In this document: in pieces, positions 49,325 through 63,929 of the stretch
Position numbering within the stretch: position 1 is the stretch's first letter
How the letters are laid out: each line of letters begins with the position of its first letter
Assembly (NCBI RefSeq): GCF_021401345.1
Contig: NZ_JACBGE010000001.1
Coordinates: forward strand, 1 to 64,000
Source: Hydrogenophaga sp. NFH-34
Lineage (GTDB): Bacteria > Pseudomonadota > Gammaproteobacteria > Burkholderiales > Burkholderiaceae_C
Length of the DNA stretch: 64,000 nucleotides
Reading direction: 5' to 3'
Translations under genes and position numbers: made by a program
The notes under the pieces: generated by a model
What the model saw: the letters and a program-made list of their open reading frames with translations, nothing else
Databases searched by the model: none
What the model was told of the DNA's origin: nothing

Positions 49325-50134
49325 ATGTCTTCTCTGCCCATCGACAGCCTTGGCCAGGCGCTCGGCCATGCGATCAGCGACAAGCGGCTGGAAGTGCTGC
49401 GTCGCATCGGCGAAACGGGCTCCATATCTCAGGCCGCGCGCGATGCCGGCATCAGCTACAAGGCGGCCTGGCAGGCCCTGGATACCCTGACCAACCTGAG
49501 CGGTCAGCCGCTGGTGGAGCGCACCGTGGGCGGGCAGGGCGGCGGCGGGGCGCGGCTGACACCCGAAGGCGAGCAACTGCTGGTGCTTGCCGATGCCATG
49601 GCGGAGGCGCGTCAGTCGGTGCTGCAGCGCTTCGGCGCCTTGCCCCTTGGCGGGCAGGTGGCAGCGGACACCCCCCTGCCGACACTGGGCGGGCTCGGTT
49701 TGCGCACCAGCATGCGCAACCAGCTCGCCTGCACTGTCGTGGTCTGCGAGCAGGCTTCCGCCGAAGATCCGATGGTGGCGGTCCGGCTGCGCACGCGGGG
49801 CGGCGCCGAGCTGGTGTCGGTGATCACCTGGGACAGCGCCGATCTGCTGGCGCTGTCGGCGGGCACGCCAGTCCTGGTGCTGTGCAAAGCCACTGCGGTG
49901 ACCATCAGCGCCGGGCAGGCGCCGGCGCTCGGTGTGCCGCGCCAGCCTGGAACCTGCCTGGAGGGCCGGGTCGAGCGGATCGCGGCAGGGGCCCGGCACG
50001 ACGAGGTGGTGCTGGCGCTGGAAGGGGGTGACCACTGGGTCGGTTTTGCGGCGCATCCCTGCGCCTTGCAGCCTGGCGACAGCGCGGTGGCTTTCATGGC
50101 GGCAGCGGCTCTGGTGATTGCGCACCCGAGCTGA
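49325..50134 (+). CDS. modE: Molybdate-responsive transcriptional regulator ModE
   Basis: This 269-residue regulator has an N-terminal LysR-like winged helix (about residues 20-85, GSISQAARDAGISYKAAWQALDTLTN) and two C-terminal Mop domains (about 125-195 and 200-265) that bind molybdate. Molybdate-bound ModE represses mod transport genes. The likely target is the palindrome at 43.07 kb. It lies about 4 kb from the mod genes, separated by the regulator and dehydrogenase genes. The start has only a weak ribosome-binding site. Confidence 0.92.
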   Translation: MSSLPIDSLGQALGHAISDKRLEVLRRIGETGSISQAARDAGISYKAAWQALDTLTNLSGQPLVERTVGGQGGGGARLTPEGEQLLVLADAMAEARQSVLQRFGALPLGGQVAADTPLPTLGGLGLRTSMRNQLACTVVVCEQASAEDPMVAVRLRTRGGAELVSVITWDSADLLALSAGTPVLVLCKATAVTISAGQAPALGVPRQPGTCLEGRVERIAAGARHDEVVLALEGGDHWVGFAAHPCALQPGDSAVAFMAAAALVIAHPS

Positions 50135-50256
50135 TGGCCAGTCAGCGGCTGTTTCTGAGTCCTTTCGGGTTATTTTTTCTGATCAAAACGGCCGAGAAAC
50201 CCCGGGCATGCGTGCGATTGTTCTCGCGGGAACGGCTGTTAAAGGCGATACGTTCA

Positions 50257-50286
50257 TTTACAAGTAGTGCTTTAGAACTTTATACT
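50257..50286 (+). promoter_or_regulatory. Promoter of the double-glycine peptide gene
   Basis: TTTACA (50257-50262) and TATACT (50281-50286) are separated by 18 bases in an AT-rich stretch that stands out locally. The leader would be about 37 bases, and the ATG follows TTCCTGGAG. Confidence 0.65.
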
Positions 50287-50329
50287 TTGGTACCTTTTTC
50301 AAGGTTCCTTCTATTTCCTGGAGTACAAA

Positions 50330-50521
50330 ATGCGTACGTTGACCCAACAAGAGATGGCTGATGTGGCCGGTGGTTTCTTCTTCTGCCGGCCCAAGTGCTC
50401 GCCCAAGCCGAAGTGCCAACCGAAGCCCAAGTGCTCGCCCAAGCCGAAGTGCCAGCCGAAGCCCAAGTGCAATCCCACGCCGGTCCCGGTGGAGCCGGTG
50501 GAGCCGCCCGAAGAGTATTGA
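50330..50521 (+). CDS. Double-glycine leader peptide with Cys-Pro-Lys repeat core
   Basis: This 63-residue precursor begins MRTLTQQEMADVAGG, a classic double-glycine leader cleaved after Gly15 by C39 peptidases. The core starts FFFCRPKC and repeats Cys-(Ser/Gln)-Pro-Lys-Pro-Lys four times, with cysteines at 19, 23, 29, 35, 41 and 47. A Pro/Glu tail (PVPVEPVEPPEEY) follows. The core carries nine lysines and one arginine, so it is strongly basic with an acidic end. No known bacteriocin family is recognised. A C39 ABC transporter, HlyD-like adaptor and TolC-like channel are encoded just downstream on the opposite strand. Antimicrobial, metal-binding or signalling roles are all possible. Confidence 0.85.
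   Translation: MRTLTQQEMADVAGGFFFCRPKCSPKPKCQPKPKCSPKPKCQPKPKCNPTPVPVEPVEPPEEY
50396..50467 (+). repeat. Two tandem 36-bp repeats in the peptide gene
   Basis: Copies at 50396-50431 and 50432-50467 match at 35 of 36 positions. Each encodes twelve residues, that is two Cys-Xaa-Pro-Lys-Pro-Lys units. The near-identity points to recent duplication, so copy number may vary between strains. Confidence 0.9.
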
Positions 50522-50546
50522 TCTGCTCGTCGGCAGCGACATGCTG

Positions 50547-50580
50547 AAAAGCCCGAAAGCCTTTGGCTTTCGGGCTTTTT
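50547..50580. terminator. Bidirectional terminator between the peptide and TolC genes
   Basis: A perfect 15-bp stem (AAAAGCCCGAAAGCC at 50547-50561 with its complement at 50565-50579) closes a TTT loop, with A-rich and T-rich ends. It serves the peptide gene on the plus strand and the convergent export operon on the minus strand. Confidence 0.9.
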
Positions 50581-50591
50581 TCCTGGGGCGA

Positions 50592-52031
50592 TCAGCGCGC
50601 GCCCAGGCGGCCGCTGGCCAGGCTCAGGCCCAGACGGGCGTTGAGCAGCTCGACTTGTGCGGTCACCCGCTGCCGCCGTGCTTCGGCCAGCGCGGCCTGG
50701 GCGTTGAGCAGGTCCAGCACCGAGCCCACCCCCGCCTGATAGCGGCCATGGGCCACCTGGTAGGTGGCCTGGGCTGACTGGAGCAGGCGTTCGCTGGCGC
50801 TGAGACTCTGGCGCCCGGTCTGCAGCGCCTGGAAAGCCTGCCAGAGCTGGCTTTCCACGTCGCGACGTGCGGTTTCGAGCTCGGCCTCGGCCTGGGTCTT
50901 CCGGGCCACGGCCTGGGTTTGCAGGGCTTTGCTTTCACGGCCATCGAACAGTGGGATGTTCAGACGGATCTGGGCACTGCCGGCAGGGAGGGTGCCGGTG
51001 CCGGCCGACCCCCAGTTGCGCGAGGTCCCGGCGGCGACGCCCGTGGTCACACTGCCACGGGTCTGGGCCCGGGCAGCCTCGATTCGGGCATCCGCGCCGT
51101 CGATCTGCGCGCGCAGCGCCTGAAGGCGGGGATGGGTCTGGCGCACTTCCTGCCCCAGCACGGCCAAGTCCGGCGCGGCCTGGTTGGTCTGGACGAGGGC
51201 TTCCCAGTCGGCCAGTTGCAGCGGTTGTGCCGGTTCGGCGCCCAGGGCCAGGGCCAGGGCGGCCCGCGCGTTTTCCCAGGTACCCTCAGCGCGCACACGC
51301 TCCAGGGTGGCTTGGGCCAGGGCTGTCTGGGCCTGCAGGCGCTCAATCTGGCTGCCCACTTCGGCGCGGTGCCGGGCATCGGCCGCGGCGGCCGTGCGCG
51401 AGGCGGTTGCTTCGGCCTCGCGGGTGGCGTCGAGGCTGGCCGCTGCGATCACCGCTTCGCCATACAGCCGCAAGGTCTCGCGCAAGGTCTCCAGCAGGGT
51501 GTTGCCCTGCTGGGCCAGTGCGGCCGACAAGCCCGCGCGGGCCTCGCGCAGCGCCGCGCTGCGCTGCCCGAAGTCGAACAGCACCCAGGACAGGCCCACG
51601 GTGGCATCGAGCGTGCGGCCGAGGCTGCCGCTGGCGTTGAAGTTGCGGTCGGCGCTGTAACCGGCGCTCACGCTCCAGCGCGGCCGGAATTCGACCTCGG
51701 CCAGATCGACGCCAGCGGTCTGCTCGCTCACGCTGGCCAGTGCCTGGCGCAGGGCCGGGCTGGCACACAGCGTGCGTGCGACGGCGTCGCCCACGGTCAG
51801 GTGCCCCCAGGGGGCCTGGCCGGGGGCTTGGCAGACCGGGCTGCCGGGCAGCCAGTTCAGCACTTCGGCGTCAGGGGGTGGGGCCCCAGGAGCCCGGTCC
51901 AGGGGCAGCTGGCCCAGCCAGGTCGACAACCGGAGCACCGGGTCCGGTGTGTCGGCCGCACCCGCAGGACCGGTCAGCCCGGCGAGAGCGCTGGCCACGG
52001 CCAGGGCTGCGCGCAGGGGGCGGTGGTTCAT
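50592..52031 (-). CDS. TolC-family outer membrane channel of the peptide exporter
   Basis: This 479-residue protein has a signal peptide (residues 1 to about 25, ending GPAGA) and two outer-membrane efflux domains of long helices, with LSWVLFDFGQRSAALREARAGL in the first half and RLNIPLFDGRESKALQTQAVA in the second. Extra residues before the first repeat contain a CQAP segment. It would form the trimeric exit duct of a type I secretion system. The ATG at 52031 overlaps the stop of the C39 ABC transporter gene by four bases. Confidence 0.92.
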   Translation of the reverse strand: MNHRPLRAALAVASALAGLTGPAGAADTPDPVLRLSTWLGQLPLDRAPGAPPPDAEVLNWLPGSPVCQAPGQAPWGHLTVGDAVARTLCASPALRQALASVSEQTAGVDLAEVEFRPRWSVSAGYSADRNFNASGSLGRTLDATVGLSWVLFDFGQRSAALREARAGLSAALAQQGNTLLETLRETLRLYGEAVIAAASLDATREAEATASRTAAAADARHRAEVGSQIERLQAQTALAQATLERVRAEGTWENARAALALALGAEPAQPLQLADWEALVQTNQAAPDLAVLGQEVRQTHPRLQALRAQIDGADARIEAARAQTRGSVTTGVAAGTSRNWGSAGTGTLPAGSAQIRLNIPLFDGRESKALQTQAVARKTQAEAELETARRDVESQLWQAFQALQTGRQSLSASERLLQSAQATYQVAHGRYQAGVGSVLDLLNAQAALAEARRQRVTAQVELLNARLGLSLASGRLGAR

Positions 52032-54220
52032 GCGGGCTCCTGGTCGCGTCGGCGTTGCGCCACCATCGCGAAGTAGTCGGCGGGCGTGCCATCGAAGTGC
52101 ACCTGGCCCTCGCGCAGTTCGACCACACGCGGTGCAGCGCGCAGGGTTTCGGGGCGGTGGGCGATGATCAGGCGCGTGACCGGCAGGGCCGAGATGGCGT
52201 CGTTGACGCGCTGTTCGGATTCGAGGTCGAGATGGCTGGTGGCCTCGTCCAGCACCAGCACGCGGGGCCGCTTGTAGAGGGCGCGCGCCAGCAGCAGGCG
52301 CTGGCGCTGGCCACCGGAGAGCACGGTGCCCATGTCGCCGGTCAGGGTCTGGTAGCCCATTGGCATGGCTTCGATGTCTTCGTGCAGGGCCGCCATGTCG
52401 GCGCAGGTGACCATCCAGTCCAGATCGGGCTCGGGGTCGAAGAAGGTGATGTTGTCGCGGATCGAGCCCGCGAACAGGCTGTCGTCCTGCATCACGGTGG
52501 CCACGCCTTCGCGCCAGCGCTCGATCCCCAGTTGCGACAGGGGCACGCCATCGGCGCGGATCTGGCCTTCGGTGGGGGTGTAGCTGCCGAGCAGCAGGTT
52601 GATCAGGGTGGTCTTGCCGCAGCCGGATCGCCCGGTGATGGCCACGACCTCGCCGGCACCGATGTCCAGCGTCAGGCCATCCAGCACCCAGGGTGCCATG
52701 TCGGCATAGCGGAATCGCACCTGGTCGATCTGCAGGGTGGGGCTGGCGGTCTCGTTGTCTCCGGCGATCTGGCGCTGGGCAATGGCCTGGGCGTCGAGGC
52801 GGTCGGCGCGTGGCAGCGCCGGGGTGAGCACGATGTCGGCCAGGCGTTCGGCATGCAGGCGCAGCATCTTGAGGTCGATGGCCTTGTCGATCAGGGCCAT
52901 GACCCGGCTGTCGAACTGGTTGCGGTAGGCCAGGAAGGCCATCAGCATGCCGACCGTGAGTTCGGTGGACACGATCTGGCGCGCGCCCAGCCAGACGATC
53001 AGGATCATGAAGCCGCCACTGAGCAGGCCCCGCGCCAGACCGTAGAGGATCTGCATCTTCTCGACCTTGAGGTGGGCATTGGTGGCGCTGACCAGCAGGG
53101 TCTGCCAGGCGCCCTGGCGCTGCTGCTGGCGCCCGAACAGTTGGATGGCCCGCATGCCACGGATCGTTTCGAGGAAGTGCGTGGACTGCTGCGCATCGCG
53201 CACCAGCGATTCTTCGGAGGCCGCGTAGAACGGGCGGAACCACAGCAGCCGCAGCACCAGATACAGCAGCACGCCCAGCACCGACACGCCTGCCAGCTCC
53301 GGGCTGTAAAGGAACATCAGCACCAGGGTCAGCACCACCAGCAGGCCGTCGAACAGCGCTTCGACCACGGCCGTGCTGAGGGTGTTCTGGATGTCTTCCA
53401 CCGATTCGGATCGCGACACCACGTCGCCCAGGTGCCGGTTCTGGAAGTACGACAGCGGCAGCCGCGTCAGGTGGGCAAACACATTGGCTTTCCACTGCAC
53501 CGACACCGACGTGTTGATCACCATCAGCAGCCACGAACGCACCAGGCCCGTGGCGTTTTGCAGCAGCAGCAGCAGGCCGAAGCCCAGTGCCAGCGTGGTC
53601 AGCAACTGGGTGTCGCGCGAGACCACGACCTCATCCAGCACCCACTGCATGAACAGGGGCGAAACCAGGCCGAACACCTCCAGCGCCAGCGACAGCATCA
53701 GGATGCGGGCGAGCGAGGGCCAGAAGCCCGACACCTGGCCGATGAGCTGCGACAGACGCACGCGCGTCTTTTCATCGCGTGGCTGGAAGCCGGGGTTGGG
53801 CCAGAGTTCGAGCGCCACGCCGGTGAAGTGCTGCGAGACCTCGTCGAGGCTCAGGTGGCGTTCGCCGAAGGCCGGATCCAGCACCACCGCCTGGCGGCCG
53901 CTGACCGACTGCAGCACCACGAAGTGGTTGAGGTCCCAGTGCAGGATCGCCGGCAGCCGCAGTTGCGGCAGTTCGTCCAGTTCCAGCCGCAGCGCGCGCG
54001 TGCCGAGCTGTTCGCGGGCGGCAATGTCGGTCAGCGTGGCCAGGGTCACCCCGGTCAGCGACAAGGTGTGGCGCGAGCGCAGCGCCGCCAGGTCGGTGGC
54101 CAGCCCATGGTGACCCAGCACCATGGCCAGGCAGGCCAGGCCGCACTCCGCGGCCTCGGTCTGCAGCACCACCGGGGTGGTGCGGCGCAAGCCGAAAGAC
54201 AGTTGTTCGGTCCAGTTCAC
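52028..54220 (-). CDS. Peptidase C39-containing ABC transporter (bacteriocin-type exporter)
   Basis: This 730-residue protein combines three parts. An N-terminal C39 cysteine peptidase (about residues 10-145) has its nucleophile in QTEAAECGLACLAMVLGHHG (Cys26), His in HWDLNHFVVLQ and Asp in VLDPAFGE. Six membrane helices follow (about 165-430), then an ATPase domain with Walker A GRSGCGKTTLINLL near 532, signature LSGGQRQRLLLARAL and Walker B VLVLDEATSHLD. Such proteins cleave double-glycine leaders and export the core. The 63-residue peptide nearby is the obvious substrate. The start is GTG. Confidence 0.95.
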   Translation of the reverse strand: MNWTEQLSFGLRRTTPVVLQTEAAECGLACLAMVLGHHGLATDLAALRSRHTLSLTGVTLATLTDIAAREQLGTRALRLELDELPQLRLPAILHWDLNHFVVLQSVSGRQAVVLDPAFGERHLSLDEVSQHFTGVALELWPNPGFQPRDEKTRVRLSQLIGQVSGFWPSLARILMLSLALEVFGLVSPLFMQWVLDEVVVSRDTQLLTTLALGFGLLLLLQNATGLVRSWLLMVINTSVSVQWKANVFAHLTRLPLSYFQNRHLGDVVSRSESVEDIQNTLSTAVVEALFDGLLVVLTLVLMFLYSPELAGVSVLGVLLYLVLRLLWFRPFYAASEESLVRDAQQSTHFLETIRGMRAIQLFGRQQQRQGAWQTLLVSATNAHLKVEKMQILYGLARGLLSGGFMILIVWLGARQIVSTELTVGMLMAFLAYRNQFDSRVMALIDKAIDLKMLRLHAERLADIVLTPALPRADRLDAQAIAQRQIAGDNETASPTLQIDQVRFRYADMAPWVLDGLTLDIGAGEVVAITGRSGCGKTTLINLLLGSYTPTEGQIRADGVPLSQLGIERWREGVATVMQDDSLFAGSIRDNITFFDPEPDLDWMVTCADMAALHEDIEAMPMGYQTLTGDMGTVLSGGQRQRLLLARALYKRPRVLVLDEATSHLDLESEQRVNDAISALPVTRLIIAHRPETLRAAPRVVELREGQVHFDGTPADYFAMVAQRRRDQEPA

Positions 54221-54245
54221 AGGGGGCTCCGGTGGGGCGCGGGCA

Positions 54246-55529
54246 TCACGAGGCCATGCGCCCGGTCAGGCTGAACAGCGGCTCCAGCATCCATTCGTAG
54301 AGGCGCCGGCGTTCCTGCAGGATGTCGGCGTCGAGCAGCATGCCGGCCTGCAGCGGGCGCGGCTGGCCGTTGGCCTGGACCTGGCCCGTTTTGAGCCGCA
54401 CCTGGATGGCGAACACCGGCTCGCCCGGGGCCAGGCCGGTGGCCGGCAAGGTGGCCAGTTCGGCGGGCCCCACGGCCGAGCTCGACACCGACTCCACCAC
54501 GCCTTCGTGCTGCCCGAACTTCTGGTACGGGAACGCCTGGTAGCGCAGCAGCACCGTGTCGCCCGGCTGCACGAAGCCGATGCTGCTGCTCGGGGCGTAC
54601 AGCCGGGCCCGCAGTTCGCCGTGCAGCGGCACCAGCGTGACCAGCGCCTGGGTGGTTTCGGCCACCTGGCCGATTTCGGCCTGCACCAGCGTGGCTCGGC
54701 CGGCTTCCGGTGCCGTCACCAGCACGCGGCGGCGCGCCTGCACTTCGGTCAGTTGTTCTTCGGTGCTGGAGACCTCGCGCTGAATCTGCGCGAGCTGGTT
54801 TTCATGGCGCCAGCGGGCGGAGTCGAGATCCTGGCGGACCTGCGCGGTTTCGCGCTGCACACCGAGGGCATCGCGTTCCAGACCGCGCAGCCGCGAGCGC
54901 TGTTCGCTCAGATCGATCTGCTTTTGCAGCAGCTCTTCGCGCGCGATGTAGTCCTGGTCGGCCAGGCCGCGGTAGCGGCGCTCGGTGTCTTCGGCGATGC
55001 GCACGCGGTCTTTCTGCTGTTCGATCTGGGCGGCGATCGCCGCCGTTTCGGCCCGCAGCGTGTCCAGCCGGCGTTGCAGGCCGGCGGTTTCATCGGCCTG
55101 CACCTGGCGCGAGCGGCGGATGTCGTCTTCCAGCGACTGCTTGCGCGCGCCCACGGCGCGGGCGATGTCGGCCTGCACCTCGCGCGCGCCGTCACCCAGC
55201 CGGTCGCTGCTGAGCACGTAGAGCAGTTCACCCTTGTTCACGGCCTGGCCGTCGGTCACGTGTTTTTCCAACACCACGCCGGCCTGGGGGGTGTGCACGC
55301 GGATCACCCCGGCGGCGGGCACCAACTGGCCATTGACGGTCACGCGCCGCGTGTAGCTGCCGAAGATCATGAAAGCGACCACCGCGACGGCCATCAGGGC
55401 GGCCAGCAGGCTGACCCAGAAGCTCGACAGGCGCGGGGTGAGCACGATGCGGCCCACGGTGGACGCGCGTTGGGCGTCCAGGGCTTCGTCACGGAACAGG
55501 CGCGCGGAGCGCTCGGCGTCTGCTGGCAT
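54246..55529 (-). CDS. HlyD-family membrane fusion protein of the peptide exporter
   Basis: This 427-residue adaptor has a short cytoplasmic end (FRDEALDAQRASTVGRIVLTP), one membrane helix (about residues 35-57), a lipoyl-like half-domain (VRVHTPQAGVVLEKHVTDGQ), a long coiled-coil hairpin (about 120-290) and a beta-barrel. It links the ABC transporter to the TolC-like channel. The start at 55529 gives the typical bacteriocin-type N-terminus but lacks a clear ribosome-binding site, and the frame is open 50 codons upstream. It is the first gene of the three-gene export operon. Confidence 0.92.
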   Translation of the reverse strand: MPADAERSARLFRDEALDAQRASTVGRIVLTPRLSSFWVSLLAALMAVAVVAFMIFGSYTRRVTVNGQLVPAAGVIRVHTPQAGVVLEKHVTDGQAVNKGELLYVLSSDRLGDGAREVQADIARAVGARKQSLEDDIRRSRQVQADETAGLQRRLDTLRAETAAIAAQIEQQKDRVRIAEDTERRYRGLADQDYIAREELLQKQIDLSEQRSRLRGLERDALGVQRETAQVRQDLDSARWRHENQLAQIQREVSSTEEQLTEVQARRRVLVTAPEAGRATLVQAEIGQVAETTQALVTLVPLHGELRARLYAPSSSIGFVQPGDTVLLRYQAFPYQKFGQHEGVVESVSSSAVGPAELATLPATGLAPGEPVFAIQVRLKTGQVQANGQPRPLQAGMLLDADILQERRRLYEWMLEPLFSLTGRMAS

Positions 55530-57044: not shown

Positions 57045-57404
57045 TCACGGCCCACCAACGACCGGCCGGTTCAATAACTTCGAAAGTGCGCCCACCCCGC
57101 CTCCGTTGATCGCATGGCTATATCCCATCTGCTCAACGATTTTGCAGGCACGTTGGGAGCGCGCGCCCGAGCGGCAATACAGGATCAAAGGCTGGGTCCG
57201 AGTGGGCACAGCGGTCGCAACGTCTAAGTGGATACGGTCAAGCGGTAGCCACAGCGCTCCTTCGATGTGCCCTGCAGCGAACTCCCCGGCGGAGCGGACG
57301 TCAACCAAGACGGCGCCGGCCGACAGCATTTCGGCGGCCGATTTACCCGCCGATCGACCAAAACGGGAACAAGAAGCCCCAAGAATCTTCGCTAACCAAC
57401 TCAT
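57045..57404 (-). CDS. Rhodanese-domain sulfurtransferase
   Basis: This 119-residue single-domain protein has the rhodanese fold: AGAVLVDVRSAGEFAAGHIEGALWLPLD and the active-site loop YCRSGARS with catalytic Cys near residue 76. The N-terminal LAKILGASCSRFG may associate with the membrane. Rhodaneses transfer sulfane sulfur to acceptors and assist thiol redox control. It follows the TolC-like gene by 17 bases in an operon that also encodes a thioredoxin. Confidence 0.9.
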   Translation of the reverse strand: MSWLAKILGASCSRFGRSAGKSAAEMLSAGAVLVDVRSAGEFAAGHIEGALWLPLDRIHLDVATAVPTRTQPLILYCRSGARSQRACKIVEQMGYSHAINGGGVGALSKLLNRPVVGGP

Positions 57405-57421
57405 GCGATCAATTTCCAGTG

Positions 57422-58834
57422 TCAGTTCAAAGGTGACGCAGCAAGTTCGCCATCGGCTACTTGCAAAGCAGCCTCATCCAGGCGGCCGATCAGCGCGGCC
57501 AGTCGCAGCCGGTCCATCAACAGACCGATGCGAGCTTGCGCAAGCGCAAGGCTGGATGTGGCGGATTCGTTTTCGGCATTGAGAAGGTCCAGCGTGGTGC
57601 GCTGGCCGACCTCGCGTCCCAGGCGCGTGGCGTCGAGCCTTGCCAGGCTGGCACTGAGCGCCTGTTCCAGCGCCCTGACACGTTCGGCGCCAACGCTCAG
57701 CCCCAGCCAGGCCAAGCGCACCTGCTGCGCGACTTGCTCTCGCGTGCGCTCTACCTCGGCTGCGGCCTTTTCCGCCAGTCGCAGCGCCTCTTCTTCCTTG
57801 GCGCTGCGGTATCCGCCGGTGAAAAGCGGCATCGAGAACTGGATGCCGATCATCCAGTTCGTGCCCGTGTTGCTGGCCGACCCAAAATCGCCACTGCCGC
57901 TCAGTCGATCACGTCCCACCTGGGCGACGAGATCGACGGTGGCGGACGAACTCCGGCCGTACTTCGTCGCCTCTTGCCTCGCGACATCGGCTGCCAGCAA
58001 CTGGGTGCGAATTTCAGGGTTGCGCGACTGCGCCTCATCCAGCCAGAACTCCAGCGGCTGGAGCGATGACGTCTGGCCTGCGCTGGGGCCAGGAAGACGG
58101 GCCGCCAGAGAACCGGGAGGCAATCCCGTGGTGTTCGCCAGCAGGTTGCGCTTGACCAGCACGTCGCTCTCGGCCGCCAGTACCTGCGCGCGAAGTGCTG
58201 CCAGGCGTGCGCCTGCCTCATGGGTATCGGTAATGGGGACGTCCCCGAGCTTGAAGCGGTCTTGCGCTTCGACCGCCGCCTTCTCGACGGCATCGAGTTG
58301 CTGTCTATGCACGCGCACGGTTTCCTCGGCAAGGGCGAGATCGAGATAGCGCTCCACCGTGCGGAGCATCAGCGTCTGTCCTGCTGCCTGCCATTGAAGG
58401 TCTGCCAGGTCGGCTGAGGTGGAAAGCTGCTGCTGCTCGGCGCGCCGCTTCGGGTTGTAGAGCGGCTGCGTCGCTGCCACGGCCCAGCGCGAGGCGGTGC
58501 CGTTGGTCACGGAGGTGCTGAAGCCTACGCCACTGGATTGTCCGAACCCAGGGGCGCTGAACTGCGCACCTCGCGTTTCGGACTCGTTCGTGGCTACCCC
58601 CACCGAGCCGACCACGCCGACAGTCGGTCGCCACAGCGCCGCGGCCTGGTCACGGCGCGGCTGGGCTGCTGCATGGGCCGCGCGGGCGACAGCGTATTCC
58701 TTGTCGTTCTGCGTCGCCGCTTGCCAAGCCTCCATGAGCCCTGCGGCCATCGCCACTTGCGTCTGGCAATACAGGGGCGCAGCCAGCAACGAGATCCACA
58801 AAGCCTTTGACATGCGCTTCTTCATGGACTTCAT
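57422..58834 (-). CDS. TolC-family outer membrane efflux protein
   Basis: This 470-residue protein has a signal peptide (about 30 residues, ending VAMA) and two outer-membrane efflux repeats with long helices (for example ALEQALSASLARLDATRLGREVG). It should form the outer duct for the RND pump encoded upstream. The ATG at 58834 overlaps the thioredoxin stop by four bases. An ATG at 58825 has a better-spaced AAGGG and may be used instead. Confidence 0.9.
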   Translation of the reverse strand: MKSMKKRMSKALWISLLAAPLYCQTQVAMAAGLMEAWQAATQNDKEYAVARAAHAAAQPRRDQAAALWRPTVGVVGSVGVATNESETRGAQFSAPGFGQSSGVGFSTSVTNGTASRWAVAATQPLYNPKRRAEQQQLSTSADLADLQWQAAGQTLMLRTVERYLDLALAEETVRVHRQQLDAVEKAAVEAQDRFKLGDVPITDTHEAGARLAALRAQVLAAESDVLVKRNLLANTTGLPPGSLAARLPGPSAGQTSSLQPLEFWLDEAQSRNPEIRTQLLAADVARQEATKYGRSSSATVDLVAQVGRDRLSGSGDFGSASNTGTNWMIGIQFSMPLFTGGYRSAKEEEALRLAEKAAAEVERTREQVAQQVRLAWLGLSVGAERVRALEQALSASLARLDATRLGREVGQRTTLDLLNAENESATSSLALAQARIGLLMDRLRLAALIGRLDEAALQVADGELAASPLN

Positions 58835-59262
58835 CCCTTCTGCGTGAGGTTTTTGCGGACCCAGCGCACCAGGTCGCCTGCGACCATCGCCCCCGAGTGG
58901 CGCGCCAGCTCCTTGCCGGCGCGGTACAGGATGAGCGTTGGGACGCTGCGAATGGCGCTGGCCGCCACGGCCTGCGGATTGGCATCGATGTCGAGCTTGG
59001 CGAAACGGACCTCGGGGAGCTTCGCAGCCGCATCGTCGAAATGCGGCGCCATCATCTTGCAGGGGCCGCACCAACTGGCCCAGAAGTCCACCAGCACCGG
59101 CGGATCGGTGCGCGTGATGTAGCGCTCGAAGGTCGCATCGCTTAGCGATGCGGGCTTGGCCGCCATCAGTTCAGCGCCGCAACGACCACAGACCGGCTCG
59201 CCGGACGGGCGTTCGTCGGGGACGCGATTGATCGTCCCGCAGGCGGGGCAGCCGACATGCAT
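58831..59262 (-). CDS. trxC: Thioredoxin 2-type protein (TrxC-like)
   Basis: This 143-residue thioredoxin has an N-terminal zinc ribbon with two CxxC pairs (CPACGTINRVP and CGRCGAEL) and the active site FWASWCGPCKMMAPHF. Zinc-ribbon thioredoxins reduce protein disulfides and respond to oxidative stress. It lies two bases after the DUF2892 gene and overlaps the TolC-like gene by four bases, so it is part of the efflux operon. Its role there is not established. Confidence 0.93.
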   Translation of the reverse strand: MHVGCPACGTINRVPDERPSGEPVCGRCGAELMAAKPASLSDATFERYITRTDPPVLVDFWASWCGPCKMMAPHFDDAAAKLPEVRFAKLDIDANPQAVAASAIRSVPTLILYRAGKELARHSGAMVAGDLVRWVRKNLTQKG

Positions 59263-59264
59263 GA

Positions 59265-59474
59265 TCAGGCTCCCTGGCGCACGCCGAGCTTGCGCAGAAT
59301 GGATTCCATCAGGCACCACTTGGTCAGCCCGCTTTGCAGCAGGTTCACCCCGACGAAGGCGGTGAAGGCCAGCCACCATTGATTGACGAAGATCGGGCTG
59401 CCAGGGATGCCCAGGGCCAGCGACAGCAGGATGAAGGTGCCTGCGATGACGCGAACGAGTTGCCAGGAAGTCAT
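59265..59474 (-). CDS. DUF2892 (YgaP-type) inner-membrane protein
   Basis: This 69-residue protein has two membrane segments (about residues 8-24 and 31-51) around PGSPIFVNQWWLAFTAFVGVN, the DUF2892 pattern. The same domain is fused to rhodanese in YgaP, and a rhodanese gene is in this operon, so the pair may work as YgaP does. It overlaps the RND gene by four bases. Confidence 0.85.
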   Translation of the reverse strand: MTSWQLVRVIAGTFILLSLALGIPGSPIFVNQWWLAFTAFVGVNLLQSGLTKWCLMESILRKLGVRQGA

Positions 59475-62400
59475 GGTGTTTCTCCTTGAGTGGACAGGGT
59501 TGCAGGGGTTGGCGTGAGGGGTTCCTCGGGCTCTTCGCGGCCCGCGATCGCGTCCAGCCGGTTCCGGTACGCGATGAAGTAGAGGATCGGAATTACGACC
59601 AGCGTCAGCACGGTCGAGACGAAGATGCCGAAGATCAGCGAGATCGCCAGGCCGTTGAAGATCGGGTCGTCGAGGATGAAGAAGGCGCCCAACATGGCAG
59701 CCAGCCCGGTCAGCACGATGGGCTGCGCGCGCGTGATGGCGGAGCGCACGATGGCCTGCTTGAACTCCACGCCTTCGCGCACCTGCAGGTTGATGAAGTC
59801 CACCAGCAGGATGGAGTTGCGCACGATGATGCCGGCGAGCGCGATCATTCCGATCATGCTGGTGGCGGTGTACTGCGCGCCCAGCACGGCGTGGCCTGGC
59901 ATCACGCCGATGATGGTCAAGGGGATCGGCGCCATGATGATCAACGGTGTTAGGTAGGACCCGAACTGCGCCACCACCAGCAGGTAGATCAGCACGAGGC
60001 CAACGCCATAGGCCAGGCCCATGTCGCGGAATGTTTCGTAGGTCACCTGCCACTCGCCATCCCACTTCAGCGCGTAGTCGCGGTAAGCGTCATCAGGCTG
60101 GCGGATGAAATACTCCTGCAGCGTCCCACCGCCGGGCGTGGCGATCTTGGTGAGTTCCCCACGCATCTGGAACATGCCGTAGAGCGGGCTGTCGAGCGCG
60201 CCGGCCATGTCGGCCACGACGAAGTTCACCGGCAACAGATCCTTGTGGTAAATCGGCTGCTCGCTCACCTGGTCGCTGAGGGTGACGAGTTCCCGGATCG
60301 GCACCAGTTTCCCATCGGCGCTGCGCACCGTGAGCTGCAGCAGGGCGTTCAGGTCGCCGTGCTGCTCGGGCGGCAATTGCAGCACCGCGGCCGCCGGGTA
60401 CTTGGTCTCGTCATGCAGAAAGGCCGTGGCCTCGCCGGCCAGTCCGGCGCGCAGCGTGGTGACGATGGCCTGCTGCGGCACGCCGAGCATGGAGGCCTTC
60501 TGCCGGTCCACCAGCAGCATCGTCTTCGGTGCCGCAGCGATGCTGCTGTCGTCCACGTCCACCACGCCAGGCGTGCGCTCGAACACGGCGCGCACGGCCT
60601 TGGCGACCTGATGCCGACCGGCCGCATCCGGGCCATAGATCTCCGCCACGATGGGAGAGAGCACCGGCGGGCCCGGCGGCACTTCGACCACCTTGACGTT
60701 GGCGTCGAAGCGCTCACCGATCTTCTGCAGTTCTGGCCGCACGCGGGTTGCGATGGCATGGCTCTGGTCCTTGCGCGCGGTCTTGTCCACCAGATTGACC
60801 TGCAGGTCGCCGACGTTGCCGCCGGCACGCAAATAGTATTGGCGCACCAGGCCGTTGAAGTTGATCGGCGCCGCGGTACCGGCATAGGCCTGGTAGTCGG
60901 TGACTTCGGGCACTGTCGCCAGGTAGCTGCCCAGCTCGTGCAGGACTGCGGCCGTCTGCTCCACCGGCGTGCCGGCGGGCATGTCAACGATGACCTGGAA
61001 CTCCGACTTGTTGTCGAAGGGCAGCATCTTCAGCAGCACCAGGCCGGTGGCCGGCAGCGCCAGCGATGCAGCGATCAGCAGCGCGACCCCCAGGGCCAGC
61101 AGGCTGCGGTTGCGCGAGCCACGCCGCTCGTCCAGCAGTGGGCGGAAGATCCGCTCAAAGACCGGCGCGATCTTCGCGGCCAGGCCGGAGTGGGTCGCCG
61201 TGTGCGGCCCGCCGTCGCCATGCGCAGCAGCCGGTACCGCCTTCATCCACAGCCGAGCCAGCCAGGGCGTGACGACGAAGGCGATGGCCAGGGACAACAG
61301 CATGCCCATGCTGGCATTGATCGGGATCGGGCTCATGTACGGGCCCATCAAGCCCGTCACGAAGGCCATGGGCAGCAGCGCGGCGATCACGGTCAGCGTC
61401 GCCAGGATGGTCGGCCCCCCCACTTCGTCCACGGCACCCGGGATGATCGCCGCCAGCGACTTGCCGGGGTAGAGCTGCTGGTGCCGATGGATGTTCTCGA
61501 CCACGACGATGGCGTCGTCCACCAGGATGCCGATCGAGAAGATCAGCGCGAACAGCGATACGCGGTTGAGCGTGAAACCCCAGGCCCAGGACGCGAACAA
61601 GGTCACCGTCAGCGTCAGCACCACCGCGCTGCCGACGATGGCCGCCTCGCGCCGGCCGAGCGCGAAGAAAACCAGCGCCACCACCGACGCGGTGGCGAAC
61701 AGCAGCTTCTTCATCAGCGTCTGCGCCTTGTCGTTGGCGGAGGCGCCGTAGTTGCGCGTTTCCGCCACCTGGACATCGCCGGGGATGACGGTGTTGCGCA
61801 GACCTTCCACCCGCTTCATCACGGCGTTGGCCACGTCGATGGCGTTCTCACCCGCCTTCTTCGTCACCGCGACCGTGACCGCCGGATACTCGGCCGGCGC
61901 GGCGCCGTCCTTGCCGGCAACGCCATGCCAGACATAGCGGCTGGGTGGAAGCGGACCGTCACGAACCTGTGCCACCTCCCGCAGAAAGACCGGCTTGCCG
62001 GCCCGCACGCCGACCACCAGATCGGCTACCTCGTGGGCGTGGCGCAGGAAAGGCCCGGACTCGATGGCCACCGAACGGTTGCCTGCGATCAGCTCACCCA
62101 CAGGAAGCCCCAGATTGGCCGACAGCAGCGCCTGCCGCACCTCCGGCACCGTGACGCCGACGCCGCTCATGCGCACCGGGTCGATTTGCACCATCACCGC
62201 TCGGCCCGGGCCACCGATCGTGGTCACTTCGCGGGTGCCGGGCACACGCTTGAGGTCCGCCTCGACACTGTGCGCGACACGCTCCAGGTCGAATGCGCCG
62301 GTCTGCGCGTTCTCGCTGAACAGCGTCAACGTAACGATTGGCACATCATCGATGCCCTTGGGCTTGATGATCGGTTCGAGCACACCAAGCCCCTTGGGCA

Positions 62401-62803
62401 GCCAGTCGGCGTTCGAATTCACCGTGTCGTACAGCCGCACCAGCGCCTCGGTGCGGGTCACGCCGACCTTGAACTGGACGGTCAGCACGGCCAGACCAGG
62501 ACGGGACACCGACATCACATGCTCGACGTCCAGGATCTGGCTCAGCACCTGCTCTGCCGGCACGGCCACCATCTGTTCCACGTCGCGCACCGCAGCCCCC
62601 GGGAAGGGGATCAGCACATTCGCCATCGTGACGTTGATCTGCGGCTCCTCTTCGCGTGGGGTCACGCCCACGGCGAACAGGCCGAGCAACAGCGCGAGCA
62701 GTGCCAGCAGTGGCGTAATCTGTGCCCGCTGGAAAAAGGCGGCGATGCGGCCCGAAACGCCCATGGCAGGCGCGCCGGTAGTGGTGGATCGTGTTTTCGT
62801 CAT
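59471..62803 (-). CDS. RND-family efflux pump inner-membrane subunit
   Basis: This 1110-residue pump has twelve membrane helices and two large periplasmic loops (about residues 50-345 and 590-870), the AcrB/HAE layout. The paired aspartates of the proton relay are in SIGILVDDAIVVVENIHRH. The sequence is divergent from AcrB and closer to the group found in metal- and solvent-efflux islands. The substrate cannot be told from sequence. The ATG at 62803 lies eight bases after the adaptor stop. A TTG at 62815 is also open but less likely. Confidence 0.94.
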   Translation of the reverse strand: MTKTRSTTTGAPAMGVSGRIAAFFQRAQITPLLALLALLLGLFAVGVTPREEEPQINVTMANVLIPFPGAAVRDVEQMVAVPAEQVLSQILDVEHVMSVSRPGLAVLTVQFKVGVTRTEALVRLYDTVNSNADWLPKGLGVLEPIIKPKGIDDVPIVTLTLFSENAQTGAFDLERVAHSVEADLKRVPGTREVTTIGGPGRAVMVQIDPVRMSGVGVTVPEVRQALLSANLGLPVGELIAGNRSVAIESGPFLRHAHEVADLVVGVRAGKPVFLREVAQVRDGPLPPSRYVWHGVAGKDGAAPAEYPAVTVAVTKKAGENAIDVANAVMKRVEGLRNTVIPGDVQVAETRNYGASANDKAQTLMKKLLFATASVVALVFFALGRREAAIVGSAVVLTLTVTLFASWAWGFTLNRVSLFALIFSIGILVDDAIVVVENIHRHQQLYPGKSLAAIIPGAVDEVGGPTILATLTVIAALLPMAFVTGLMGPYMSPIPINASMGMLLSLAIAFVVTPWLARLWMKAVPAAAHGDGGPHTATHSGLAAKIAPVFERIFRPLLDERRGSRNRSLLALGVALLIAASLALPATGLVLLKMLPFDNKSEFQVIVDMPAGTPVEQTAAVLHELGSYLATVPEVTDYQAYAGTAAPINFNGLVRQYYLRAGGNVGDLQVNLVDKTARKDQSHAIATRVRPELQKIGERFDANVKVVEVPPGPPVLSPIVAEIYGPDAAGRHQVAKAVRAVFERTPGVVDVDDSSIAAAPKTMLLVDRQKASMLGVPQQAIVTTLRAGLAGEATAFLHDETKYPAAAVLQLPPEQHGDLNALLQLTVRSADGKLVPIRELVTLSDQVSEQPIYHKDLLPVNFVVADMAGALDSPLYGMFQMRGELTKIATPGGGTLQEYFIRQPDDAYRDYALKWDGEWQVTYETFRDMGLAYGVGLVLIYLLVVAQFGSYLTPLIIMAPIPLTIIGVMPGHAVLGAQYTATSMIGMIALAGIIVRNSILLVDFINLQVREGVEFKQAIVRSAITRAQPIVLTGLAAMLGAFFILDDPIFNGLAISLIFGIFVSTVLTLVVIPILYFIAYRNRLDAIAGREEPEEPLTPTPATLSTQGETP

Positions 62804-62811
62804 GACCGGCC

Positions 62812-63879
62812 TCAACGCACGCGCGCGGCGGATTGCGGATCGGTCACGACCTGCTCACCGGGCATCAGTCCGGACAGGATCTCGACGCGGCCATCGGTGG
62901 CCCGCCCGAGGCGGACTTGGCGCAGCACGGGCTTGCCCTGCGGATTCAGTACATACAAGCCGGTGAGTTCGGCGCGACGCACGATGGCTTCCACGGGCAC
63001 GGACAGGAGAGCGCCTGGCGCTGTACCGGGGGCATCGCTGCGTGCCAGCGGCAGCCACAGCCGCGCGAACATGCCAGGCGCGACGGTAGCGTCCACGCCA
63101 CCAGGCAGTTCGGCACGCAACTGCACAGTGTGCGTCGCTGCATCGACGGTGGGCAGCAGTTGGACCTTTCCAGGGACCACCCATGCACTCGCCGCCGACA
63201 GGCCGGGCAGTTCGATGCGCAGCTTCGGATCGGCCGGCATGCGCGCCGTCACCGACTGCGGCACAGCCGCCGTGACGCGCAGAGCCGTCGGGTCATACAG
63301 GGTGAGCAGAGGCCGGCCAGGCATGGCCATGTCGCCCAGGGATACCGGCACTTCGGACACCACACCCGCGAAGGGTGCGCGCACGACGTAGTAGCCGCTC
63401 TGCGTGCGCGACGCACTGGCCTGCGCGAGCAGCGCATTGGCCTGGGCTTGGGCCGACTTGTAAGCCGACTCGGCGCGCTCCATGGCCGCCTGGCTGATGT
63501 AGTTCTTCTGGAACAGCCGCTGCTGACGCTCAAAGTCCTTCGTCGCCAGATCCAGGGATGACCGTGCTGCCTGCACCTGGGCATCGCTGGCGGCGGCATT
63601 CTGCTCAGCCGCCCGGGCGTCGATGCGCAGCAGCACCTGGCCCGCTTTCACACGATCGCCTACTTTGACATCCAACTGGATGACCGCACCGGGCACCTGC
63701 GCCGCGATCACCGTCTGGCGAACAGCTTCGACGACGCCATCGAAGGCCGAAGTCGTCGTGCCCGCAGTGGCCACTGCCGCGGTAGCCTTCAACGGCTGGG
63801 GCGGCGTCTGGGCGGAGGCAGTCAGGCTCGCCATCAAGGCGAAAGCCGCGATGCAAAGGGTGTAGCTGGTGTGGCGCAT
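62812..63879 (-). CDS. RND efflux periplasmic adaptor (membrane fusion protein)
   Basis: This 355-residue adaptor has a signal peptide (about residues 1-24, ending LTASA), a lipoyl half-domain (VIQLDVKVGDRVKAGQVLLRIDARAAEQN), a short coiled-coil hairpin (about 80-150) and a beta-barrel domain. It bridges the RND pump and the TolC-like channel of the same operon. It is the first gene of the operon. The ATG at 63879 is preferred over a GTG three codons upstream, although neither has a strong ribosome-binding site. Confidence 0.92.
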   Translation of the reverse strand: MRHTSYTLCIAAFALMASLTASAQTPPQPLKATAAVATAGTTTSAFDGVVEAVRQTVIAAQVPGAVIQLDVKVGDRVKAGQVLLRIDARAAEQNAAASDAQVQAARSSLDLATKDFERQQRLFQKNYISQAAMERAESAYKSAQAQANALLAQASASRTQSGYYVVRAPFAGVVSEVPVSLGDMAMPGRPLLTLYDPTALRVTAAVPQSVTARMPADPKLRIELPGLSAASAWVVPGKVQLLPTVDAATHTVQLRAELPGGVDATVAPGMFARLWLPLARSDAPGTAPGALLSVPVEAIVRRAELTGLYVLNPQGKPVLRQVRLGRATDGRVEILSGLMPGEQVVTDPQSAARVR

Positions 63880-63929
63880 GGAGGGCACTTTCTGTTAGGA
63901 GCGCTGTCGAGTGCGAAGAAATTTCAGTC

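Follow-up and report, generated by a model that had tools for sequence, protein, structure and literature searches.

A double-glycine peptide with a Cys-Pro-Lys repeat core and its C39 exporter in Hydrogenophaga: a family of changeable low-complexity cores with a possible surface or matrix role

Facing each other in a 64,000-nucleotide stretch of the genome of Hydrogenophaga sp. NFH-34, referred to throughout as the window, are a very short gene for a secretory precursor and a complete exporter operon, arranged convergently and tail to tail. The features of this locus are as follows.

50257-50286, plus strand: sigma-70-like promoter TTTACA-18-TATACT, the one such site within 50100-50700 (mean of shuffled sequences 0.1)
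50330-50521, plus strand: peptide open reading frame of 63 residues, leader MRTLTQQEMADVAGG followed by core FFFCRPKCSPKPKCQPKPKCSPKPKCQPKPKCNPTPVPVEPVEPPEEY
50330-50374, plus strand: 15-residue double-glycine leader MRTLTQQEMADVAGG, of the type common to the 23 peptides collected
50375-50518, plus strand: core FFFCRPKCSPKPKCQPKPKCSPKPKCQPKPKCNPTPVPVEPVEPPEEY of 48 residues, with the stop codon at 50519-50521
50389-50470, plus strand: tandem array coding for four C-x-P-K-P-K units, with 18 and 36 bp periods (TRF)
50546-50580, no strand assigned: hairpin with a T-run between the convergent genes (-26.1 kcal/mol, z -5.7)
50592-52031, minus strand: TolC-type outer membrane channel (Pfam OEP, E 1.4e-50)
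52028-54220, minus strand: C39 peptidase-ABC exporter, or PCAT (Pfam Peptidase_C39, E 1.4e-33)
54246-55529, minus strand: HlyD-like membrane fusion protein (Pfam HlyD_3, E 8.1e-13), its start read from the sequence

The precursor given in a preliminary description of this DNA, with its double-glycine leader, 48-residue core, six cysteines and nine lysines, is reproduced exactly in the open reading frame. The core also carries a single arginine, is 31% proline and has a net charge of +6, and its cysteines are spaced by gaps of 4, 6, 6, 6 and 6 residues. The tandem array beneath it is recovered by TRF both at a period of 18 bp (5.2 copies, score 102) and at 36 bp (2.3 copies, 97% match, score 157). 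Directly 5' of the start, a GGAG ribosome-site sequence can be read, and the TATACT element of the promoter is also seen upstream of the gene in the two closest homologues when read off the alignment. The hairpin is probably a two-way terminator, and it is absent from the output of the consensus scan that gave the promoter. The leader is identical at 9 of 15 positions to that of microcin V, MRTLTLNELDSVSGG, as given in PMC10231218. A single-sequence AlphaFold model, which is weak evidence, shows no fold (pLDDT 56.9).

On the opposite strand, the adaptor, the C39-peptidase ABC transporter and the TolC-like channel are each borne out by Pfam matches, and the start of the TolC-type gene overlaps the C39-ABC gene by 4 bases. 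The HlyD-like protein matches TIGR01843 with an E of 1.4e-38, yet falls under the curated cut-off. The exporter aligns over residues 17-719 of 730 with 4ry2, an ABC-type bacteriocin transporter (E 2.6e-92), and its triad of Cys26, His99 and Asp115 is invariant across 11 aligned exporters and spaced as the Cys32/His105/Asp121 of CvaB described in PMC9746304. The anatomy of the locus, the co-occurrence of peptide and exporter and the exporter phylogeny make it very probable that the precursor leaves the cell through this C39 ABC, HlyD and TolC machinery.

The wider neighbourhood of the window was scanned with Pfam. The peptide gene is flanked by a LysR gene and, upstream, by a ModE-like gene with a TOBE domain, which we take to be a molybdate-type regulator; in the comparison made for the empty site of the window cassette, its closest relative shares 67% identity. 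Among the Pfam-scanned genes between 45.5 and 63.9 kb no maturase was found, in keeping with the earlier statement that none lies in the narrower interval of 49.3-55.9 kb. Further along, 3' of the LysR gene, the minus strand at 57045-63888 holds a rhodanese, a second TolC-type channel, a thioredoxin 2-type protein and an AcrB-type RND pump with its adaptor.

Could so short a repetitive reading frame have arisen by chance? This is ruled out by two homologues within the genus and by the substitution pattern in the repeat. A search of 67 Hydrogenophaga genomes with the single peptide gave some match at E <= 1 in 64 of them, among which G016 (E 1.1e-13) and G037 (E 2.2e-13) are homologues and the remainder resemble chance. 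Both homologous peptides carry four C-x-P-K-P-x units after the leader and, unlike the window copy, sit after CoA-transferase genes (by Pfam in G016). Over the 24 codons of these units the three homologues show a pN of 0.19-0.25 against a pS of 0.50-0.76, a rough estimate, such that the C, P, K and P of each unit are kept while the codons drift.

An orthologous exporter (at least 74% identity) is present in five of the 67 Hydrogenophaga genomes, and a 23-row profile finds leader-bearing matches in all five (seven matches) and in none of the 62 exporter-less genomes, where the best 95 candidates were scored in 27. This co-occurrence is to be read knowing that the profile includes peptides of the five exporter-bearing genomes, and that the co-occurring genomes are related and hence non-independent; further, 23 of the 67 genomes have less than 90% completeness or more than 5% contamination. 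The same search of the genus (profile A5) gave eight more matches in six genomes that began at model position 6 or later, and these were discarded. The window genome itself holds a single such peptide by profile search, and tblastn against 72,556 plasmid records gave no match.

Two of the five genomes, G004 and G023, have the exporter next to CoA-transferase genes with no peptide there. Their peptides lie elsewhere and were found with a profile built without them: on the G004 chromosome, two adjacent genes with SGKGSGKN cores (E 2.9e-5 and 0.006) and a third with an NNGWGNGD core (E 0.033), and in G023 one SGKGSGKN peptide (E 6.5e-4). In both genomes the unlinked SGKGSGKN genes are about 1.2 kb from a gene with aminopeptidase P (Xaa-Pro) domains (L276:7518-8949, L277:4649-7540), a proximity that is perhaps shared synteny only. 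Two double-glycine peptides from different genera (L279:5324-5557, L278:3824-4075) have in common the core NNGWGNGDxxAPGNSLxxNxAENxVRPGAA near Cys; cores of this type are unlike the low-complexity cores of their companion peptides and match no NCBIfam or Pfam family above cut-off. Across Hydrogenophaga, five of seven peptides end in PQV(P/D), the exceptions being the window peptide (EPPEEY) and one from G004 (DSVP). Since these tails are encoded by differing codons while the residues recur, the C-terminal tail seems to be kept as protein.

Beyond the genus, exporter relatives at E <= 1e-150 occur in 130 of 399 genomes of the taxonomic family, and 40 of more than 150 listed exporter regions were examined for linked peptides. 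A profile of nine leaders found them in 10 of these 40 regions, all with scores of at least 28; three of the linked peptides stood outside the profile-building set and scored 28.0-29.5, the next candidate scoring 20.8. Homologues near C39 exporters in relatives, one of the tests that the preliminary description had set itself, do exist. Among the matches listed, relatives could be named through loci L170 and L176 as Sphaerotilus natans and Ideonella alba. The cores of the relatives are diverse: CSPTPTPTCTPTPPPTC; SGCGKGSKGGKKSSKK...PPPPRE; poly-Pro; KSKSKSKSKC; and an aromatic stretch that runs into a Pro/Cys tail. Further, G199 has two peptides on a contig apart from that of its exporter (E 2.4e-6 and 0.004), both ending in PQDF despite differing cores and again with different codons, which brings to three (with G004 and G023) the genomes that keep peptides unlinked to the exporter. 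A repeat search of 14 genomes, in all of which leader matches hold by construction, found two peptides each only in G121 and G199. The peptide gene is duplicated in tandem at L085:4631-5384, the copies being distinguished by a few residues and by a short insertion within the Gly/Ser stretch.

Two broader searches with profile A2 covered 399 genomes of the order and 399 of the family, with at most the best 15 candidates scored per genome. Among the candidates scored, the order search matched 11 genomes, including the window and G528, where a 59-residue reading frame of the leader type lies beside what by eye appears to be the start of a HlyD gene; the other nine gave Pro-rich pieces that entered the model only at position 13 or beyond and were discarded. 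The family search matched 63 of 399 genomes at E <= 0.01, and at E <= 5e-7 we accepted 12 matches in 11 genomes, ten of these genomes being already in the profile and G377 new. Weaker matches were discarded apart from leader matches in G199 and G167, the latter with a core of another kind. Absence in either search says little because known peptides, such as that of G179, were missed there.

In all, 23 peptides with this leader type were collected. In a FastTree tree of 125 exporters, the 17 from peptide-holding genomes (14 linked, three unlinked) form one clade with a support of 100. Two more exporters, those of G233 and G377, fall in a group close by together with L233 and L241, which likewise have simple Cys/Lys/Ser/His sequences as peptides, and G203 and G432, whose exporters lie in a neighbouring group with other double-glycine peptides, were rejected as members. 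Cys-bearing simple-sequence double-glycine peptides of the kinds SHSKGG, SKSKSK and SCGSSYSS are also encoded in an Oceanospirillaceae (L233:3312-3551), a Pseudoduganella (L241:3381-3560) and an Acetobacter (L245:4082-4501) locus, and are perhaps separate origins of the same habit. Elsewhere, six double-glycine peptides of 28-29 residues are encoded close to a Janthinobacterium exporter (L195:4101-8809), and a Pseudoalteromonas exporter has three near-identical ones of 36 residues (L209:9157-9667).

What, then, defines the family? The Cys-Xaa-Pro-Lys-Pro-Lys repeat of the preliminary description is real at the window; as a family signature it had to be rejected, as C-x-P-K-P-x arrays occur in only three of the 23 peptides, with a single unit in G097. 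Rather, the family is a leader and an exporter clade, with freely varying low-complexity cores of Cys, Pro, Lys, Gly and Ser, and with some members encoded far from the exporter. Leader, exporter clade and general composition are kept across it, while the repeat unit, length, charge (-3 to +13) and number of cysteines (0 to 10) are not. As controls we took 45 double-glycine cores, found with the same leader profile at 32 loci with other exporters, and set them against the 21 clade cores (the 23 peptides minus those of G233 and G377). At least three cysteines are present in 19 of 21 clade cores and in 4 of 45 controls; median proline is 21.6% against 3.9%, median AVILMF 10.8% against 35.6%, and the four commonest residues make up 67.2% against 56.5%.

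The cysteines themselves follow no strict rule. Their number is even in 12 of the 23 peptides and odd in 11, and a range of 0 to 10 without parity argues against one fixed disulfide fold. At least one Sphaerotilus natans relative has a peptide with no cysteine, so that thiols are not essential in every member. Where the cores of Hydrogenophaga, G303 and G097 consist of X-Pro segments, the gaps between cysteines are mostly 6 or 8 and so amount to whole X-Pro dipeptides. With three residues to each turn of a polyproline II chain, the 6-residue period of the window would place its cysteines on one face of such a chain.

Searches for partners and known families around these genes were largely negative. 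Known class II microcin immunity proteins are of 51-216 aa and encoded near the peptide (PMC9746304), and candidates were sought with a filter for reading frames of 40-250 residues with a ribosome site and a hydrophobic segment, at most 2.5 kb from the peptide. This filter gave no candidate for 17 of the 23 peptides. The match at the window proved to be an internal start of the ModE-like gene, that at G199a is antisense to the other G199 peptide, and that at G377 looks like a HlyD start. Candidates at G303, G097 and G085 have 43, 72 and 84 residues; the last, just upstream of its peptide and without a Pfam match, has by eye the look of a genuine gene for a small membrane protein or lipoprotein. 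A 75-residue reading frame overlapping the window peptide (50134-50361) was rejected, since it lacks a ribosome site, reaches a peak hydropathy of 1.2 and has no counterpart at any of six related loci. Thus no immunity gene was found beside the window peptide by this simple search, which unfamiliar kinds could escape.

A comparison of 18 loci shows no neighbour, exporter genes aside, that is common to more than four, and those common to two to four are mostly close-relative synteny or aldehyde dehydrogenases. Nineteen neighbour reading frames of more than 100 residues at 10 related loci include no known maturase by Pfam; 12 match ordinary Pfam families and seven match none, some of these probably being antisense. 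Close to the G235 exporter there is a gene for a SelO-type protein adenylyltransferase (L088:3607-5187). The core matches no Pfam, NCBIfam or PADLOC model above cut-off, which agrees with its earlier placement outside known families, and no PDB sequence; Trypan_PARP (E 0.25) and TonB (NCBIfam NF008084, E 0.029) fell far under cut-off. No published description of the peptide family was found among titles and abstract openings.

Given this range of features, several functions have to be weighed. The main rival to a surface or matrix role is a class II microcin-like antibacterial peptide, acting on membranes or entering cells like proline-rich antimicrobial peptides. Four of the five class II components (precursor, PCAT, MFP and TolC) as listed in PMC9746304 are present, the window leader is close to that of microcin V, and the core diverges fast. 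On the other hand, the window has no immunity candidate beside its peptide and the loci no widely common neighbour, yet five relatives of the 23 gave a candidate reading frame. The hydrophobic starts of the Sphaerotilus-type cores presumably resemble temporin, a point for the antibacterial reading. The peptides also occur as unlinked genes, and their cores are poor in hydrophobic residues, while microcins and bacteriocins are described in PMC10231218 as rich in glycine and hydrophobic residues. Overall we consider an antibacterial function less likely than not, although leader, exporter, adaptor and channel all agree with it.

A secreted thiol metal-binder, metallothionein-like or metallophore-like, is suggested by six regularly spaced cysteines in 48 residues and by the ModE-like neighbour with its TOBE domain. 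Against it, the window core has neither CxC nor CxxC, the cysteines of relatives vary from 0 to 10 with erratic gaps, the ModE-like gene does not adjoin the peptide in G016 or G037, and besides that gene, and perhaps the RND pump (59-64 kb), no obvious metal-role gene is found among the Pfam-scanned window neighbours, which together leave the idea improbable. About as improbable is a modified RiPP with its maturase gene at a distant site of the genome: the leaders weakly match TIGR04149 (window E 0.018; G303 E 0.0063) and TIGR04497 (G199 E 0.054; G037 E 0.093), all under the curated cut-offs, and neither the 45.5-63.9 kb interval nor the 19 related neighbour frames hold a maturase, nor do the cores have a modifiable motif in common. 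Double-glycine export serves signals too, and a signalling peptide read by a receptor might be imagined; with no widely common neighbour as a possible receptor, and with low-complexity cores that would make poor specific ligands, this seems very unlikely. Among the three functions suggested in the preliminary description, the metal site is weakened by drifting cysteine number and spacing and the antimicrobial by the missing immunity gene, and the surface peptide fits best.

We tentatively favour, at a little short of even chances, the view that a low-complexity peptide, mostly cationic and bearing thiols, serves at the surface or in the matrix, with a logic like that of EbfG and PteB. A bulk physical role is favoured over a toxin, a fold or a specific ligand by the failure to find an immunity gene, by peptide genes lying apart from the exporter, by the changeable low-complexity cores and by the drifting number of cysteines. 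The C39 domain of the neighbouring exporter would recognise the 15-residue leader, with a predicted cut after Gly-Gly, and the 48-residue core would pass HlyD and TolC in one step and remain unfolded outside the cell. There the X-Pro repeat could make the chain an extended and stiff cationic rod in which a thiol recurs at every sixth residue, the cysteines might join chains to one another or to the cell surface, and the peptide, acting in bulk, may form a coating, an adhesive or matrix material. We infer that selection keeps the leader, the general chemistry and, within clades, the short Pro-rich C-terminal tail, and no fold. That relatives keep the tag and the exporter and swap the Cys-bearing simple cores speaks no less for a material used in building or coating than for an antibiotic.

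A bolder proposal, which we consider doubtful, is that the family constitutes a new class of secreted thiol materials. One exporter clade would deliver interchangeable chains with nothing in common but the export tag and, within clades, the Pro-rich tail; the tail would direct anchoring or assembly, and the cysteines would form cross-links. Were this true, X-Pro rods, SGKGSGKN and poly-Pro cores should be swappable with function retained. Moreover, double-glycine peptides of Gram-negative bacteria are usually classed as microcins, and an exporter clade with Cys/Pro/Lys low-complexity cores, no immunity gene found and unlinked substrates offers a test case for non-antibiotic use of the route. 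The leader profile also detects short genes that the curated libraries searched here overlook, and the system might be used for secreting simple repeat materials.

Finally, several known systems invite comparison. The Lys-Pro/Glu-Pro segment of TonB has similar Lys-rich X-Pro repeats, but the match is one of composition only, as TonB is a membrane protein and lacks a Cys array. The other C39 exporters of proteobacteria that come with double-glycine peptides are of the same superfamily and leader style, and their 45 cores, with a median of 0% Cys and 35.6% AVILMF, differ. Closer is microcin V with CvaAB-TolC, which has in common the 15-residue MRTLT...V.GG leader, the C39 ABC triad, the HlyD-like adaptor and the TolC-type channel. 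Unlike microcin V, the window peptide has no immunity gene found and a low-complexity Cys/Pro/Lys core in place of one with abundant Gly and hydrophobic residues, its operon includes the TolC-type gene, and some relatives' peptide genes are unlinked. The microcin V exporter takes cargos of diverse chemistry, with length the main limit (PMC10231218), so that low-complexity cores can plausibly pass. As for EbfG1-4 of Synechococcus, two reports (PMC4997328, PMC9981879) describe double-glycine proteins that require the C39 transporter PteB and act in biofilm, EbfG1-3 carrying amyloid motifs and forming amyloid. Against a surface or matrix role of this kind, the window genome shows one peptide where there are four EbfG, and its tail (EPPEEY) lacks the PQV motif. 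Nevertheless, EbfG1-4 and PteB of Synechococcus elongatus resemble the present family in pairing small double-glycine proteins without known domains with a C39 transporter, and in the several substrates that one genome can hold, as in G004, G121 and G199.
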